DNA from: Methylobacter sp.
Lineage (GTDB): Bacteria > Pseudomonadota > Gammaproteobacteria > Methylococcales > Methylomonadaceae
Assembly (NCBI GenBank): GCA_030684815.1
Contig: JAUXXQ010000212.1
Location: forward strand, 1-35,060
DNA: 35,060 nt
Direction of reading: 5' to 3'
The notes under the pieces were generated by a model. It searched no databases. It was not told the DNA's origin and saw only the letters and a list, made by a program, of their open reading frames with translations. Each line of letters opens with the position of its first letter. Within the stretch, counting starts at the first letter, position 1. The translations under genes and the position numbers were made by a program. Below, one piece after another: positions 15,620-21,344 of this stretch.

Positions 15620-16789
15620 ATGAATATTCATGAGTACCAGGCCAAACAGTTGTTTTTGCATTACGCGATACCGGTGCCTGACGGCAAGTGGGCCGACACG
15701 CCTGAAAGTGCGGCACAAGTCGCCCAAGAATTGGGCGGCGAGGGTTGGGTGGTTAAAGCCCAAGTCCATGCCGGCGGCCGGGGTAAAGTCGGCGGCGTCA
15801 AATTGGCTAAATCGCCGGTTGAAGTGGCTGAATTAAGCCGGGAAATGCTCGGTAAACGCTTGGTCACCAAACAGACCGGCGCGGAAGGTTTGCCGGTCAA
15901 CTCATTGCTGATAGAAAAAACCTACCCGATTAAACGCGAGCTCTATTTAAGTTTGCTGGTTGATCGTGGCACCGAGCGCATTATTTTTGTTGCATCGGCC
16001 GCAGGCGGTATGGATATAGAAACAGTCGCCCACGAAACGCCCGAACAGATTATCTCGGTTCCGGTGCATCCGGCCGCCGGTTTGCAAGGCTATCAATGCC
16101 GCAAAGTCGCTTACGCCCTGGGGCTTAAAGGCGCGCAGATCAAAGCTTTAAGCAAAATCATGCAGGGCTTGTATGACCTATTTTTAGCCAAAGACGCCAG
16201 CCAGATTGAAATCAACCCGCTGATAGAAACCGACAGCGGCGAGTTGATGGCGCTGGATGCCAAGATCAATTTCGACGATAACGCTGTTGCCGCACATCCC
16301 GAGATTTTGGCGATGAAAGACCCCGAGCAGGAAGATGAAAAGGAAAACAAAGCCGAACAATTCGGGCTGAATTACATCACGCTGGAAGGCAATATCGGCT
16401 GCATGGTTAATGGCGCGGGCTTGGCGATGGCGACCATGGATTTGGTCAAATTGAAAGGCGGCTTACCCGCCAATTTCCTCGATGTCGGCGGCGGCACCAG
16501 TGTTGACAAGGTTTGCGAGGCGTTCAAACTGATTTTATCGGATCACAGCGTCAAAGCGGTATTGGTCAATATTTTTGGCGGCATCGTGCAATGCGACATT
16601 ATCGCGTCGGGCATTTTGGCTGCGGTCGAGCAGGTTCACGTTACCCTACCGGTCGTGGTGCGCCTCGAAGGCACGAATGCCGAACAAGGCCGCGCCTTGC
16701 TCAGCAACACCGGATTGAACCTTTATGCGGCAGATAATTTAGCACACGCCGCAGAACAAGTAGTCGCACTCGCAAAGGAGGCCGCATGA
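15620..16789 (+). CDS. sucC: Succinyl-CoA synthetase beta subunit
   Basis: The 389-residue product has the full length of SucC and its usual opening [12 protein letters not shown]. The ATP-grasp fold is visible in [20 protein letters not shown], the metal-binding stretch [10 protein letters not shown], and the later [14 protein letters not shown] and [14 protein letters not shown]. It forms the nucleotide-binding half of the enzyme that makes ATP or GTP from succinyl-CoA in the TCA cycle. AAGGAG at 15608-15613 is an ideal ribosome binding site. The related malate-CoA ligase of the serine cycle is the main alternative, but no serine-cycle genes are nearby and the pair looks like standard SucCD. 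Confidence 0.94.
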
Positions 16790-17652
16790 GCATTTTAATC
16801 GACAAAGACACCAAAGTAATTTGCCAGGGCTTTACCGGCAAACAAGGCACGTTTCATTCCCAACAAGCGCTCGATTACGGCACTAAATTAGTCGGCGGCG
16901 TCACTCCGGAACGCGGCGGCGAAACCCATTTGGGTTTGCCGGTGTTCAACACGGTACAGGATGCTGTGAACGATACCGGCGCCACCGCCAGCGTCATTTA
17001 CGTGCCGCCTTTTTATGCGGCTGATGCAATTTTAGAAGCGGTCGATGCCGGCATACAACTGATTGTCTGCATCACCGAAGGCATACCGATATTGCAAATG
17101 CTGCGCGTCAAGGCCGCGATGGCGGGAACCGGTGTGTTGTTAATCGGCCCGAACTGCCCCGGCGTGATCACTCCCGGCGCCTGCAAAATCGGCATCATGC
17201 CCGGTCATATCCACCTGCCCGGCTCAATCGGCATCGTCTCGCGTTCCGGCACTTTAACTTATGAATCGGTGCATCAAACCACCGCGCAAGGCTTGGGGCA
17301 AAGCACCTGCGTCGGCATCGGCGGCGACCCGATTCACGGTATGAACTTCGTTGACGTGTTGAGCCGTTTTCAGGCCGATGAGCAAACCAAAGGCATCGTG
17401 ATGGTCGGCGAAATCGGCGGCGGCGAGGAAGAAGATGCGGCGGAATACATCAAAGCCCATGTCACCAAACCGGTGGTTGCTTATATCGCAGGGCAAACCG
17501 CGCCTCCCGGAAAGCGCATGGGCCATGCCGGTGCGATTGTGACCGGCGGCAAAGGCACTGCGGAAGGTAAAGTCGCCGCGCTTAAAGCGGCGGGGATTGA
17601 GGTGGTCAGTTCGCCGACTGATATTGGCGTGGCGATGAAGGGGTGTTTGTAA
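16786..17652 (+). CDS. sucD: Succinyl-CoA synthetase alpha subunit
   Basis: The 288-residue subunit begins [18 protein letters not shown], the CoA-binding fold, and retains [17 protein letters not shown] and SRSGTLTYE. The phosphorylated active-site histidine is His247 in [14 protein letters not shown]. Length and motifs match the enterobacterial enzyme closely. It shares ATGA with the sucC stop, so the two subunits are translated together. A perfect hairpin follows 10 bases after the stop and the AT-rich ATPase module begins after that. Confidence 0.95.
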
Positions 17653-17662
17653 AGTTGACTGT

Positions 17663-17686
17663 AGAGACGCGATTTATCGCGTCTCT
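17663..17686. repeat. Perfect 10-bp hairpin (AGAGACGCGA/TCGCGTCTCT)
   Basis: Ten base pairs with a 4-nt TTTA loop lie 10 bases after the sucD stop. There is no T tract, so terminator function is uncertain. GTAGAGACGCG palindromes of this type occur as dispersed repeats in cyanobacteria and other bacteria. It marks the junction between the housekeeping sucCD operon and the AT-rich module that follows. Confidence 0.8.
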
Positions 17687-17704: not shown

Positions 17705-18991
17705 ATGGAAAACACTAAAATAATTTCGAAGATCACTACTAAAAACTACCGAAATCTGGTTAATGAAGACGGTATTGCCTTAAATAATCTCAATATTTTG
17801 ATTGGTTCAAACGGTTCTGGTAAAAGCAATTTGGTAGGTATACTGGAGTTCTTAAAAAATTGCTTAACGCCTACATCTGATTTAGATAGCCGGGGAATTA
17901 CTGCTTTTCAAAACGCATTGTCCAAGCTTGGATACAATATTTTAGATGCCTATATTGATAAACCGGCAACCGTCGACTTGATATTTAAGTTTCCTTATTT
18001 ACATTCATCCAGTGGTATGGAATTTAACTTGTCACTTTTTATAGATAAATCTACTGTATTTATTAATGATGAGACTTTAATTAATCTTAACCATGATACT
18101 AAATCAGAGTTATCATTTTATTACCGAAGCCATCTTAATACTCTTGGTAGAGCTTCTGTTTTTATTAAATCCGAGAAACCTGAAAGATATTCTTTAACAG
18201 AACTGGAAGAAATACCAACGAATGAATTGTCATTAATTGCTATTCCAAAACTATTAATAGAGAAGGGAATTCTTTCACCCGAACAAATTCCTTTATATAA
18301 AGCCAGCCGTGATTTAGAGGATACAGTCAAAAAATGGCAGTTTTACAATGCCAATGAAATGGATTTGGCAAAAATTCGTGGCGAAAGGCCCAAAGTGGGA
18401 TCAAGTGACGTAATACTTGCCACATCAGGCGAAAACTTGCCTGCCGTTTTAGACAACATAAGCAATCACATAAAATACGGTCTTGATTTTGATGAGCGCA
18501 TTAATAATGCAATGAAGGATATATTGCCTATGACCAAGCGCATCAAAACTTCCAGAGAAGGTATGTCGCTGACAGTACGATGGTATTTTGACGACATGGA
18601 AGAACCTTTCTATTTAAACGACATGTCGGACGGAACTGTGCGCATGTTGTGCTGGGCAACTATTTTACACTCGCCCATACTGCCGACGTTATTAGTCATT
18701 GATGAACCTGAATTAAGCCTGCATATCGCCTGGATGGGGATTTTAGCGAACTGGATAAAGCAAGCCTCGCAAAAAACACAGATTATTATTTCAACGCATA
18801 GCCCCGATTTATTGGATTACTTTACCGATTGTGCTGGCGATGTGATTTGTTTTGAAAAAACTCAACCTAAAGGGCATTTTAAAGCGCAAAAACTGCCTGA
18901 AGCTATCATAAAAGACAAAATAGCAGAGGGTTGGCAACTGGGCGACTTATATCGAACCGGCGATGATGTTATCGGGGGATGGCCTTGGTAA
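17705..18991 (+). CDS. AAA ATPase of a putative split-OLD defence module
   Basis: The 428-residue ABC-type ATPase (AAA_21, RecF/OLD-like) has Walker A IGSNGSGKSN (33-42), the signature-like MSDGTVR (307-313), Walker B LLVIDEPELSLH (329-340) and the H-loop STHSPDLL (363-370). Between Walker A and the signature lies a long insertion (about 60-290) without recognised motifs. The C terminus, LGDLYRTGDDVIGG, resembles that of ATPases paired with DUF4276 proteins. It overlaps the next gene by 13 bases. The reading frame is clearly richer in A and T than sucD or nadE, which suggests acquisition. Such ATPases typically sense invading DNA or phage proteins and control a nuclease partner; that role is inferred. 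Confidence 0.85.
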   Translation: MENTKIISKITTKNYRNLVNEDGIALNNLNILIGSNGSGKSNLVGILEFLKNCLTPTSDLDSRGITAFQNALSKLGYNILDAYIDKPATVDLIFKFPYLHSSSGMEFNLSLFIDKSTVFINDETLINLNHDTKSELSFYYRSHLNTLGRASVFIKSEKPERYSLTELEEIPTNELSLIAIPKLLIEKGILSPEQIPLYKASRDLEDTVKKWQFYNANEMDLAKIRGERPKVGSSDVILATSGENLPAVLDNISNHIKYGLDFDERINNAMKDILPMTKRIKTSREGMSLTVRWYFDDMEEPFYLNDMSDGTVRMLCWATILHSPILPTLLVIDEPELSLHIAWMGILANWIKQASQKTQIIISTHSPDLLDYFTDCAGDVICFEKTQPKGHFKAQKLPEAIIKDKIAEGWQLGDLYRTGDDVIGGWPW

Positions 18992-19737
18992 TTTGGCTGT
19001 TTGCCGGGGGCGGGGAATCTGAATTGGGCGAACGGGAAGGTGATATAAAAGGCATAGTTTGCTTTTTTGAAAAACATTTCCCTGATTTTACGTTTCACAG
19101 AATTACACCCGCAAGAAATAAACGCCCCCCTGCTAAAGTTTTACTTAATGCTGCCAATGATGCATTGGGTAAAACAGGAAAAGCTTTTGCCAAGCAAATT
19201 AAAGCCAAACTGGACGAGAAGATTAAATATCAGAGTCCGCCCGATGCGATATTAATCTTGGATGATCTGGATTGTAGTTGTGATGTTGAACGTAAATCGC
19301 TATTTGAGAACACCGTTAACCAAGCCGGAAGCGGGGCATTCAAAGAAATTCGTCGGATTATCGGCTTTGCCGCACCTGAGCTGGAAGCGTGGGTGATTGC
19401 TGATTGGGAGAATACCATCGCCAAACATATCGATTTTAGAGAAAACAATAAAGCCATGCAGCATTGGCTGAGCTGTAACGGCGTATCTTTTGCAACGCCG
19501 GAAACATTCAGCTTTTATAATAAAAGTAAAAAATCCTGCCACGATAAACTTTCTGATCTCTTAATCGAATCCTCTCGACAAAAAAATCAAACGGTTTATT
19601 CGAAAGCACAGCATACGCCTCAATTATTGCTTGCTCCTGATTTGAATCCTGATGTTGTGGCTAAAAAATGTCCAATTTTCAGAGATTTTTTCACTCAATT
19701 ACAAAAATTAAGCCCAAACTCGCAATACCTCCAATGA
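18979..19737 (+). CDS. DUF4276/TOPRIM-like partner protein, putative nuclease
   Basis: The 252-residue protein has an early GGGESELGE (10-18; Glu13 or Glu15), LILDDLDC (92-99) and PELEAWVIAD (133-142). That order fits DUF4276 and related TOPRIM-like proteins, where one Glu and a DxD (here Asp96-Leu-Asp98) bind metal. The C-terminal region has YSKAQHTPQ and KKCPIFRDFF, also family-like. With the ATPase before it, the pair resembles an OLD nuclease divided into two proteins, as in PARIS and AbiL-type systems. The ATG at 18979 overlaps the ATPase end by 13 bases. Its stop shares ATGA with nadE. Family membership is likely; nuclease activity and target are inference. Confidence 0.65.
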   Translation: MALVIWLFAGGGESELGEREGDIKGIVCFFEKHFPDFTFHRITPARNKRPPAKVLLNAANDALGKTGKAFAKQIKAKLDEKIKYQSPPDAILILDDLDCSCDVERKSLFENTVNQAGSGAFKEIRRIIGFAAPELEAWVIADWENTIAKHIDFRENNKAMQHWLSCNGVSFATPETFSFYNKSKKSCHDKLSDLLIESSRQKNQTVYSKAQHTPQLLLAPDLNPDVVAKKCPIFRDFFTQLQKLSPNSQYLQ

Positions 19738-21344
19738 CACTAAAAATAGCCCTAGCCCAAACCAACTTCCTAGTCGGCGACATCGCCGCCAATGTCGACA
19801 ATATCGCCCGCGCCGCCATATACGCCCGAGATCAATTGGGCGCGGAGTTGGTCGTCTTTCCTGAACTGACCATCACCGGCTATCCGGCGGAAGACCTGTT
19901 ATTGCGCGCCGATTTCATTGCCGCCGCCAATAACGCGCTGTATCAACTGGCCGACCGCGTTGACGGTATTGCAATGGTTGTCGGCTTTCCCGAACGCGCC
20001 GGAGACAAGCTTTATAACAGCGCGGCGGTATTGCATCAGGGCGCGATAACGGCCTGTTACCGCAAACGGGCACTGCCTAATTACGGCGTGTTCGATGAGC
20101 AACGTTATTTTACGGCGGGCAACCAACCTTGCGTATTTGAGTTTAACGGCACCTTTATCGGCCTGACTATCTGCGAAGATGTTTGGAAAGTCGGCATTAT
20201 CGAGGCCAACAAACAGGCGGGTGCTGAACTGTTGCTGACGCTGAATGCCTCGCCGTTCAATTCGGGAAAAATCCATCAGCGCGAAGACATTGTTTGCAGA
20301 CAGGTTAAAGCCGCGCAGATTCCTTTGGTTTATGTCAATCAAATCGGCGGTCAGGATGAATTGATTTTCGACGGCGCGTCTTTTGTCGCTGATGCGGACG
20401 GGAATATTGTGTTCCGTGCCGAGGAGTTTAAAGAACAAATCACTGTGGTTGAGTTTGAAGGCTGTCATCCACTAAAAAACAGCTGTGCGCCGCTGTATGC
20501 TGAAGTGTCCAGCGAGTATCAGGCGCTGGTGCTGGGCATTAAGGATTATGTGCGTAAAAACGGTTTTCAGGGTGCGATTTTGGGTCTGTCCGGCGGTATC
20601 GATTCAGCGCTGGTGCTGGCGTTGGCGGTCGATGCGCTGGGTGCGGATAAGGTTGAGGCCGTGCTGCTGCCGTCGCGCTATACGCAGGATATGAGCAATG
20701 AAGACGCGGTGCTGGAAGCGGAAGCCTTGGGCGTTCACTATCACAGCATTCCGATAGAACCTGCTGTGAATGCCTTTACTGCCATGTTGGCCGACATTTT
20801 TAGCGGTACAGCCAAAGACGCCACCGAGGAAAACATTCAGGCGCGTTGCCGGGGTGTGGTGTTGATGGCGCTGTCGAACAAGCAGGGCAAGCTGCTGCTG
20901 ACCACCGGCAACAAGAGTGAAATGAGCGTCGGTTATGCAACGCTGTACGGCGATATGTCCGGCGGTTTTGCGCCGATCAAGGATGTGCCCAAGCTATTGG
21001 TTTATCAGCTGGCGCGTTATCGCAATTCGTTATCGCCGGTAATACCGGAACGCGTCATAAGCCGTCCGCCATCGGCAGAGTTGGCGCCCGATCAGGTCGA
21101 TGCCGATTCGCTGCCGCCTTATGAAGTGCTCGACCCTATCTTGGAGCGTTATATCGAAAAGGATCAGTCCGCTGCTGAAATTATCGCCGCCGGTTTCAGG
21201 CGCGAAGATGTCGCCCGCGCCATCAGTCTGGTCGACCGCAATGAATATAAACGCAGACAATCGCCGCCGGGCATCCGCATTACGGCTAGGGCATTTGGCC
21301 GTGACCGGCGTTATCCGATCACTTCCGGTTATAAAGGCATGTAA
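19734..21344 (+). CDS. nadE: Glutamine-dependent NAD+ synthetase
   Basis: Starting at ATG 19734 gives 536 residues opening MTLKIALAQTNF, the normal start. An in-frame ATG at 19668 would add 22 unfamiliar residues. The N-terminal nitrilase-type glutaminase has the triad Glu44 (FPELTITGY), Lys111 (CYRKRALPNYG) and Cys147 (LTICEDVW). The synthetase domain has the ATP-binding SGGIDS (286-291). It makes NAD+ from deamido-NAD+ with ammonia taken from glutamine. Its start lies inside the last codons of the DUF4276-like gene, and no good ribosome binding site is seen, so translation may depend on coupling. It is probably essential. Confidence 0.95.
   Translation: MTLKIALAQTNFLVGDIAANVDNIARAAIYARDQLGAELVVFPELTITGYPAEDLLLRADFIAAANNALYQLADRVDGIAMVVGFPERAGDKLYNSAAVLHQGAITACYRKRALPNYGVFDEQRYFTAGNQPCVFEFNGTFIGLTICEDVWKVGIIEANKQAGAELLLTLNASPFNSGKIHQREDIVCRQVKAAQIPLVYVNQIGGQDELIFDGASFVADADGNIVFRAEEFKEQITVVEFEGCHPLKNSCAPLYAEVSSEYQALVLGIKDYVRKNGFQGAILGLSGGIDSALVLALAVDALGADKVEAVLLPSRYTQDMSNEDAVLEAEALGVHYHSIPIEPAVNAFTAMLADIFSGTAKDATEENIQARCRGVVLMALSNKQGKLLLTTGNKSEMSVGYATLYGDMSGGFAPIKDVPKLLVYQLARYRNSLSPVIPERVISRPPSAELAPDQVDADSLPPYEVLDPILERYIEKDQSAAEIIAAGFRREDVARAISLVDRNEYKRRQSPPGIRITARAFGRDRRYPITSGYKGM

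Follow-up and report, generated by a model that had tools for sequence, protein, structure and literature searches.

A stretch of 35,060 nucleotides from Methylobacter sp. (GenBank assembly GCA_030684815.1, contig JAUXXQ010000212.1, forward strand; hereafter the window) carries two overlapping genes between the housekeeping genes sucD and nadE, one encoding an ABC-type ATPase and the other a protein of the DUF4276 family (PF14103). Together they probably form an intracellular immune system of the split-OLD type, and they occupy a cargo site rich in defence genes. We infer the defence role from sequence comparisons: both proteins match candidate-defence models, the pair is patchily distributed, its junction is shared with restriction-modification, PARIS-like, EEP nuclease and toxin-antitoxin (TA) cargo, the ATPase has a hypervariable patch and relatives of the OLD/AriA type, the DUF4276 family aligns with OLD-Toprim, and some related pairs adjoin Methylase_S-like genes.

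An earlier note, made from the letters of this DNA, had proposed the pair as a candidate defence system. The reading frames, with a second protein of 252 residues and an overlap of 13 nt (18979-18991), are exactly as it described them. Its remark that the pair is AT-richer than the neighbours is borne out by the guanine + cytosine content at third codon positions (GC3), which is 0.353 in the ATPase gene and 0.369 in the DUF4276 gene against 0.562-0.664 in nine other genes of the window. No tRNA gene was found within the window.

The sucD-nadE junction as a cargo site

Of the 23 genomes from the genus, 21 gave a nadE match and 19 a readable sucD-nadE junction; of the other four, G031 and G035 have no nadE match, G044 has nadE at a contig edge and G048 lacks sucD in the 8.1 kb that precede nadE. 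Five of the 19 junctions hold the ATPase-DUF4276 pair, namely those of the window's own genome (labelled G000, a 235-contig assembly of 4.29 Mb), G041, G039, G029 and G034, the last with an extra TA-like pair. The remaining junctions hold a C5 DNA methylase with an HNH protein (three), a PARIS-like combination of an AriA-like ATPase and a DUF4435 protein (one, G047), an EEP nuclease (four, one with further TA-like genes), Unstab_antitox/ParE (two), a 453-nt remnant (one) or nothing (three, of 101, 167 and 167 nt), the cargo types being assigned by Pfam on one representative per type and by likeness for the rest. All cargo genes are, by eye, co-directional with sucD and nadE, and minus-strand reading frames of 46-126 aa in the gaps of G027, G033, G034, G036, G037 and G040 were taken as chance. 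Neither inspection by eye nor Pfam searches with a representative of each cargo type revealed an integrase among the gap reading frames. Within the genus the junction is a small hotspot of cargo, which is a new observation. The comparison of sucD-nadE synteny that the earlier note had proposed thus gave variable occupancy, with restriction-modification genes or a PARIS-like pair in place of this one, and the order-wide conservation with ordinary codon usage that it had named as counter-evidence was not found, the pair being patchy and its GC3 low.

The left edge of the variable interval is a hairpin, which precedes differing cargo in six of the 19 junctions. The idea that its palindrome might be a repeat element was rejected, as the 20-nt core is single-copy in the genome at up to one mismatch. 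On the right, the nadE start is probably at 19734, because the NadE sequence proper begins there, and therefore the stop of the DUF4276 gene overlaps the nadE ATG by 4 nt, as ATGA. In G041 a 5' nadE fragment (about 123 codons by eye; L062, 1873-2508) follows the pair on one contig, and the full nadE lies on another (L063, 229-1836), starting 229 bases in. The DUF4435 protein of G047 scores 48 bits against the AriB model and may represent a PARIS relative in Methylobacter.

Immune cargo that varies while the core genes around it stay the same is also the mark of the core defence hotspots (cDHS) of Pseudomonas aeruginosa, for which homologous recombination via the flanking genes has been suggested as the means of transfer (PMC10250203). 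The present site differs from cDHS in that it measures 0.1-3 kb, takes one small cargo at once, lies within a co-directional run of housekeeping genes and has no visible integrase.

The proportion of synonymous differences (pS) between four compared genomes is 0.34-0.57 in the pair, 0.32-0.40 in sucD and 0.36-0.48 in nadE, that is, equal to or moderately above the flanks, so a simple recent single transfer is unsupported. These values not far over those of the flanks, the common strand and the 4-nt overlap with nadE are also what an ordinary host operon pair with a metabolic or repair role tied to sucD and nadE would display. However, the pair is absent from 14 of the 19 readable junctions, stands at other loci in G063 and G226 and has a foreign GC3; a host operon is already contradicted by the junction occupancy and is hardly credible. 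As judged by eye, the surroundings of the G063 pair (L019, 6645-7797 and 11329-13723) contain a PIN-like gene and further small genes to one side and genes resembling thrC and hom to the other.

Distribution and related pairs

Relatives of the window DUF4276 protein, its own genome included each time, occur in 7 of 237 genomes of the bacterial family, in 1 of 369 in a draw from the class and in 4 of 398 in a draw from the phylum. The three additional phylum members share 38-40% identity with it, and in two sets of genomes related to these three the clade is carried by 2 of 18 and by 3 of 48 (overlapping sets, the three included). A scan of genome contigs gave six related loci of 70-99% identity, all in metagenome-assembled genomes. 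The wider DUF4276 family is common, being present in 48 of 121 sampled genomes of the bacterial family.

The window's own genome has three ATPase-DUF4276 pairs. In a survey of operons, 26 of 33 loci were parsed, and each neighbouring gene was checked with Pfam at a single locus, with separate loci for prfB and lysS; any gene name that goes further than the Pfam name is our own reading. Some of the pairs lie between the co-directional housekeeping genes cysD and cysN (G000, G006), ftsB and ispD (G000), prfB and lysS, and guaB and guaA, and further pairs lie upstream of proB and ubiA. The pairs embedded in core operons are L066/L002 (G000:C11), L065/L003 (G000:C5), L100, L101, L102, L096, L079 and L095; L081 and L084, which have an opposite-strand gene downstream, do not fit. 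Neither do the pairs at L090, L091 and L093, which follow a gene end for which Pfam gives Methylase_S, the type I restriction specificity domain, as best match, at 17.3-18.4 bits, below the cut-off of 22.

The ATPase and its hypervariable segment

The ATPase matches AAA_21 with 118 bits and AAA_15 with 68 bits, and its nearest solved chains are AriA, GajA and the retron protein PtuA. Walker A, signature, Walker B and H-loop, which had been read from the sequence beforehand, are all present and invariant in seven of seven aligned clade members. The unmatched central insertion of about 230 residues, also reported then, does not exist: the full length of the AAA_21 model spans residues 29-371, and only residues of about 98-170 are unusual in the centre of the protein, because they are hypervariable.

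In a comparison of six lineages (15 pairs; G041 omitted as a near copy of G000), amino acid identity in residues 98-170 is 24-56% in 14 of the 15 pairs and 96% in the fifteenth (G039/G029), whereas the N- and C-terminal parts of the ATPase are 74-97% identical in all 15. The proportion of non-synonymous differences (pN) in the segment is 0.28-0.47 in the 14 divergent pairs, at similar pS. The pair G000/G034 is an illustration: its ATPases are 97% identical over residues 171-428 and 52% in the segment, the segment has a pN of 0.28 and the remaining ATPase one of 0.02-0.04, and pS by segment is 0.48, 0.43, 0.42 and 0.41 along the ATPase gene and 0.54 and 0.39 along the DUF4276 gene. In sliding windows pN/pS peaks at 0.69 in the segment, with 0.02-0.28 in ATPase windows elsewhere and 0.18-0.33 in the DUF4276 gene, and when the ATPase columns were shuffled 500 times, no shuffle reached the observed window maximum of pN. 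The net charge of the segment ranges from -4 to +7. A structural model, kept only as a hint for the local strand pattern (pLDDT, the predicted local distance difference test, about 52-66 in residues 91-180), has beta strands at 88-171. Furthermore, among other DUF4276-linked ATPases (28 sequences in five groups), four of the five groups dip in identity at the corresponding place, as judged by eye. In the loci L101-L106 the DUF4276 protein starts with LLEE or FLEE and the partner ATPases have no marked variable dip, perhaps reflecting another trigger mode.

In G039/G029, residues 1-170 have a pS of 0.14-0.26 against 0.48-0.58 across the rest of the pair, and therefore these residues were probably exchanged between the two lineages. 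The PARIS ATPase AriA detects phage proteins, Ocr among them, and releases a Toprim effector (PMC12409363, PMC11455837), and because of this likeness segment 98-170 is a candidate for the part that recognizes the trigger. The fast-changing patch also bears on an addiction (toxin-antitoxin) module, in which the ATPase would be the antitoxin and the pair would persist without specific phage sensing. Other genomes do have TA genes at this junction and AriA is named an antitoxin in Protein Data Bank entries, but rapid change confined to one ATPase segment is more in keeping with recognition of a changing partner than with a fixed antitoxin, and we consider an addiction module improbable.

The DUF4276 protein and the Toprim question

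The 252-residue protein matches DUF4276 with 36.7 bits, above the Pfam gathering cut-off of 30.2, and all nine sequences of the clade alignment match PF14103 at E≤0.01 (counts of ten members add the near copy in G041). The split pair of ATPase and DUF4276 protein in the earlier note therefore stands; its TOPRIM likeness is suggested indirectly, through profiles of the wider family. In hhalign comparisons the clade matches a diverse DUF4276 set with a probability of 96.8% (E 2e-10), and this set matches OLD-Toprim with 91.9% (E 7e-7), aligned on the VEG motif, and DUF4435 with 30%; as a yardstick OLD against DUF4435 gives 68%, and an unrelated control, the ATPase alignment, gives 0.1-0.4%. The rows L092, L097 and L099 (DUF4276 set), L110 (OLD) and L129 (DUF4435) were dropped from these comparisons. 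The window's own genome also has, at G000:C90 (L115), a 654-aa open frame that matches OLD-like_TOPRIM with 63 bits.

DUF4276 proteins of the bacterial family start with a strand that ends in VEGxxE/D or LLEE. In the window clade FAGGGESEL stands in the same ungapped register as VEGGGDTN in a MAFFT alignment, so that in ten of ten clade members an alanine (Ala9) stands where Toprim proteins canonically have the metal-A glutamate. Among 31 other DUF4276 loci of the bacterial family (L078-L106, L065 and L066, that is, matches for which a locus had been constructed), this position is Glu in all 29 that could be assessed, 27 by pattern and two (L103 and L106) by eye, L092 being mis-parsed and L097 a fragment. 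The DxD of Toprim is present and invariant in nine of nine sequences. Glu15 is found in ten of ten members and Glu13 in seven, position 13 being Y or H in three of the nine aligned sequences. Of the acidic residues singled out earlier, Asp96 and Asp98 thus hold, and Glu13 is rejected as the best catalytic candidate and was probably the wrong residue. The motif PELEAWVIAD, with E-x-E-x-W...D, is comparable to VECMEAWFMAD in other DUF4276 proteins.

In OLD nucleases E400, D455 and D457 bind metal A, while E404, four residues after the first Glu, is among the ligands of metal B (BpOLD numbering; PMC7049728). The metal-A mutant E398A of P2 OLD abolishes lethality (PMC7049728), and AriB E26A is inactive (PMC12409363); that AriB E26 is the same residue was not confirmed, as an alignment search gave no match. 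With Ala9 in the clade and loss of function in such mutants, either Glu15 would substitute for the missing glutamate, or the effector would not be a standard Toprim nuclease. The DUF4276 protein may even be non-catalytic here, with a binding or structural role (as decoy or regulator) beside an ATPase that is the active component, as the alanine in ten of ten members, the variable Glu13 and the dead single mutants of P2 OLD and AriB would suggest. A retained acidic site is argued for by the DxD, Glu15 and E-x-E-x-W...D, because these are invariant across the clade alignment even at 38-40% identity, and the low pN/pS windows of the gene also speak against a non-catalytic partner, which we regard as unlikely.

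Comparison with known systems

The closest candidate-defence models are those of HEC-01 in PADLOC. HEC-01A matches the ATPase with 162 bits and HEC-01B the DUF4276 protein with 29 bits, side by side and read without the per-model cut-offs of PADLOC, so that of the PADLOC check proposed earlier the ATPase half came out clearly and the other half weakly. HEC-01 is alike in having two genes, an ATPase and a DUF4276-type protein, both matched by its models. It differs in that the own genome's other two DUF4276 proteins, sisters of this one, score 207 and 254 bits against HEC-01B, and in the alanine at the metal-A position of the window clade. No paper describing HEC-01 was found in the literature as far as it was accessible, and none naming DUF4276 was found among 5.39 million papers; the papers listed on Methylobacter defence systems and phage, judged by title and the start of the abstract, gave nothing on such a pair.

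PARIS shares the arrangement of an ABC ATPase and an effector, putatively of the Toprim family in the window, as separate genes, with AriA as nearest solved relative of the ATPase. PARIS is further characterized by a hexameric ATPase that frees a nuclease in response to a phage trigger. Its effector is DUF4435/AriB, whereas that of the window is DUF4276, and the 252-residue protein has no AriB or DUF4435 match at E≤1. An assignment to AbiL fails in a similar manner: the ATPase matches AbiLi with 75.5 bits, but the 252-residue protein has no AbiLii match (E≤1). Membership of PARIS or AbiL, which the earlier note had named as families of this layout, is therefore not supported. In addition, both genes resemble those of MADS far under the curated cut-offs, with 71 bits against MAD3 (cut-off 420) and 17.5 bits against MAD4 (cut-off 160). 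P2 OLD and GajA share the OLD-type ABC ATPase and the DxD of Toprim metal A, but are single proteins with a metal-A Glu where the window has two proteins and Ala; the two open reading frames thus place the pair outside OLD classes 1-3, in which ATPase and Toprim form one polypeptide. Moreover, no GajB-like helicase gene adjoins, the neighbours being sucD and nadE. ATPase-TOPRIM dyads as such are already known (PMC12839542, PMC10568477). The SMC-like ATPase systems Wadjet and Lamassu act on plasmids as well as phages (PMC10586767), and by this parallel the pair could be directed at plasmids or other incoming DNA instead of phage, which we think quite improbable.

Weighing of the evidence and proposed mechanism

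Several results weigh against an immune module of the split-OLD kind. Positive selection on the variable segment is neither shown nor claimed, because the pN/pS peak is below 1, and one of the five groups of DUF4276-linked ATPases, the FLLEE type, has no marked dip in identity. No relative of the window DUF4276 protein was found in phage and plasmid collections, where this protein was the one searched, and viral contigs, where the ATPase was searched too, contain none with either the clade alignment or the window ATPase as query (one locus was found with a VEGGGD-type DUF4276 query). HEC-01B, the weaker of the PADLOC matches, spans residues 59-245. The clade itself gives an hhalign probability of 0.97% with OLD-Toprim and 0.17% with DUF4435, and it aligns with the diverse DUF4276 set from residue 67 onwards, which leaves the ungapped N-terminal motif as the basis for placing Ala9. 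As the metal-A glutamate is absent, the effector may not be a nuclease. AlphaFold2 models from seven-row alignments were too poor to use (pLDDT 43.4 for the ATPase and 44.6 for the DUF4276 protein); Foldseek on the poor DUF4276 model gave no match at E≤0.001, and no relative of the clade profile was found among solved structures. The structural part of the checks proposed earlier hence came out empty, and their profile part gave a positive answer for the wider DUF4276 family. Nevertheless, for the candidate defence system of the earlier note there remain the HEC-01 matches, the patchiness and the variable junction cargo, from which defence itself is inferred.

If the pair is such an immune module, the ATPase would assemble with the DUF4276 protein and restrain it. 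The hypervariable patch would bind a phage-made product, and an ATP-dependent rearrangement would then free the effector, whose metal site on D96/D98 and Glu15, perhaps with Glu134/136, would cleave nucleic acid and halt the infected cell. Abortive infection, specificity for phage and transfer by homologous recombination are likewise proposed. A more specific proposal is tentative and rather doubtful: that the clade has a re-wired Toprim site, with Glu15 in place of the lost metal-A Glu, and a beta-rich sensor patch that diversifies and recombines like the specificity region of a receptor, and that it spreads by integrase-free homologous exchange at core-operon sites (sucD-nadE, cysD-cysN, ftsB-ispD, prfB-lysS and guaB-guaA).

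Features of the locus

Table 1. Genes, motifs and other features of the ATPase-DUF4276 locus (positions in the window).
Feature	Positions	Strand	Residues	Remarks
sucD	16786-17652	+		left flank of junction
Hairpin	17663-17686	+		two perfect 10-nt arms, 4-nt loop; between sucD and cargo; fold z -4.2
ATPase gene	17705-18991	+	428 aa	OLD/AriA-like ABC-type ATPase; putative sensor/holder
Walker A, GSNGSGKS	17804-17827	+	34-41	
Hypervariable segment	17996-18214	+	98-170	putative trigger-recognition surface; antiparallel beta strands in low-confidence model
ABC signature, SDGT	18626-18637	+	308-311	
Walker B, LLVIDE	18689-18706	+	329-334	
H-loop His	18797-18799	+	365	
DUF4276 gene	18979-19737	+	252 aa	putative Toprim-family effector
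Ala9	19003-19005	+	9	at canonical Toprim metal-A Glu position (VEG)
Glu13, Glu15	19015-19023	+	13, 15	
DxD, D96-L97-D98	19264-19272	+	96-98	
E134-x-E136-x-W...D142 (PELEAWVIAD)	19378-19404	+	134-142	
nadE	19734-21344	+		right flank of junction

Significance

Residues 98-170 of the ATPase offer a specific candidate place for trigger recognition, of which natural variants (G000 and G034) exist, and the clade is a natural case for whether a Toprim effector works without the metal-A glutamate. The sucD-nadE junction is a compact place in which to seek further small defence genes in methanotrophs. Furthermore, DUF4276 proteins are frequent in the bacterial family, although no publication that names the family was found.

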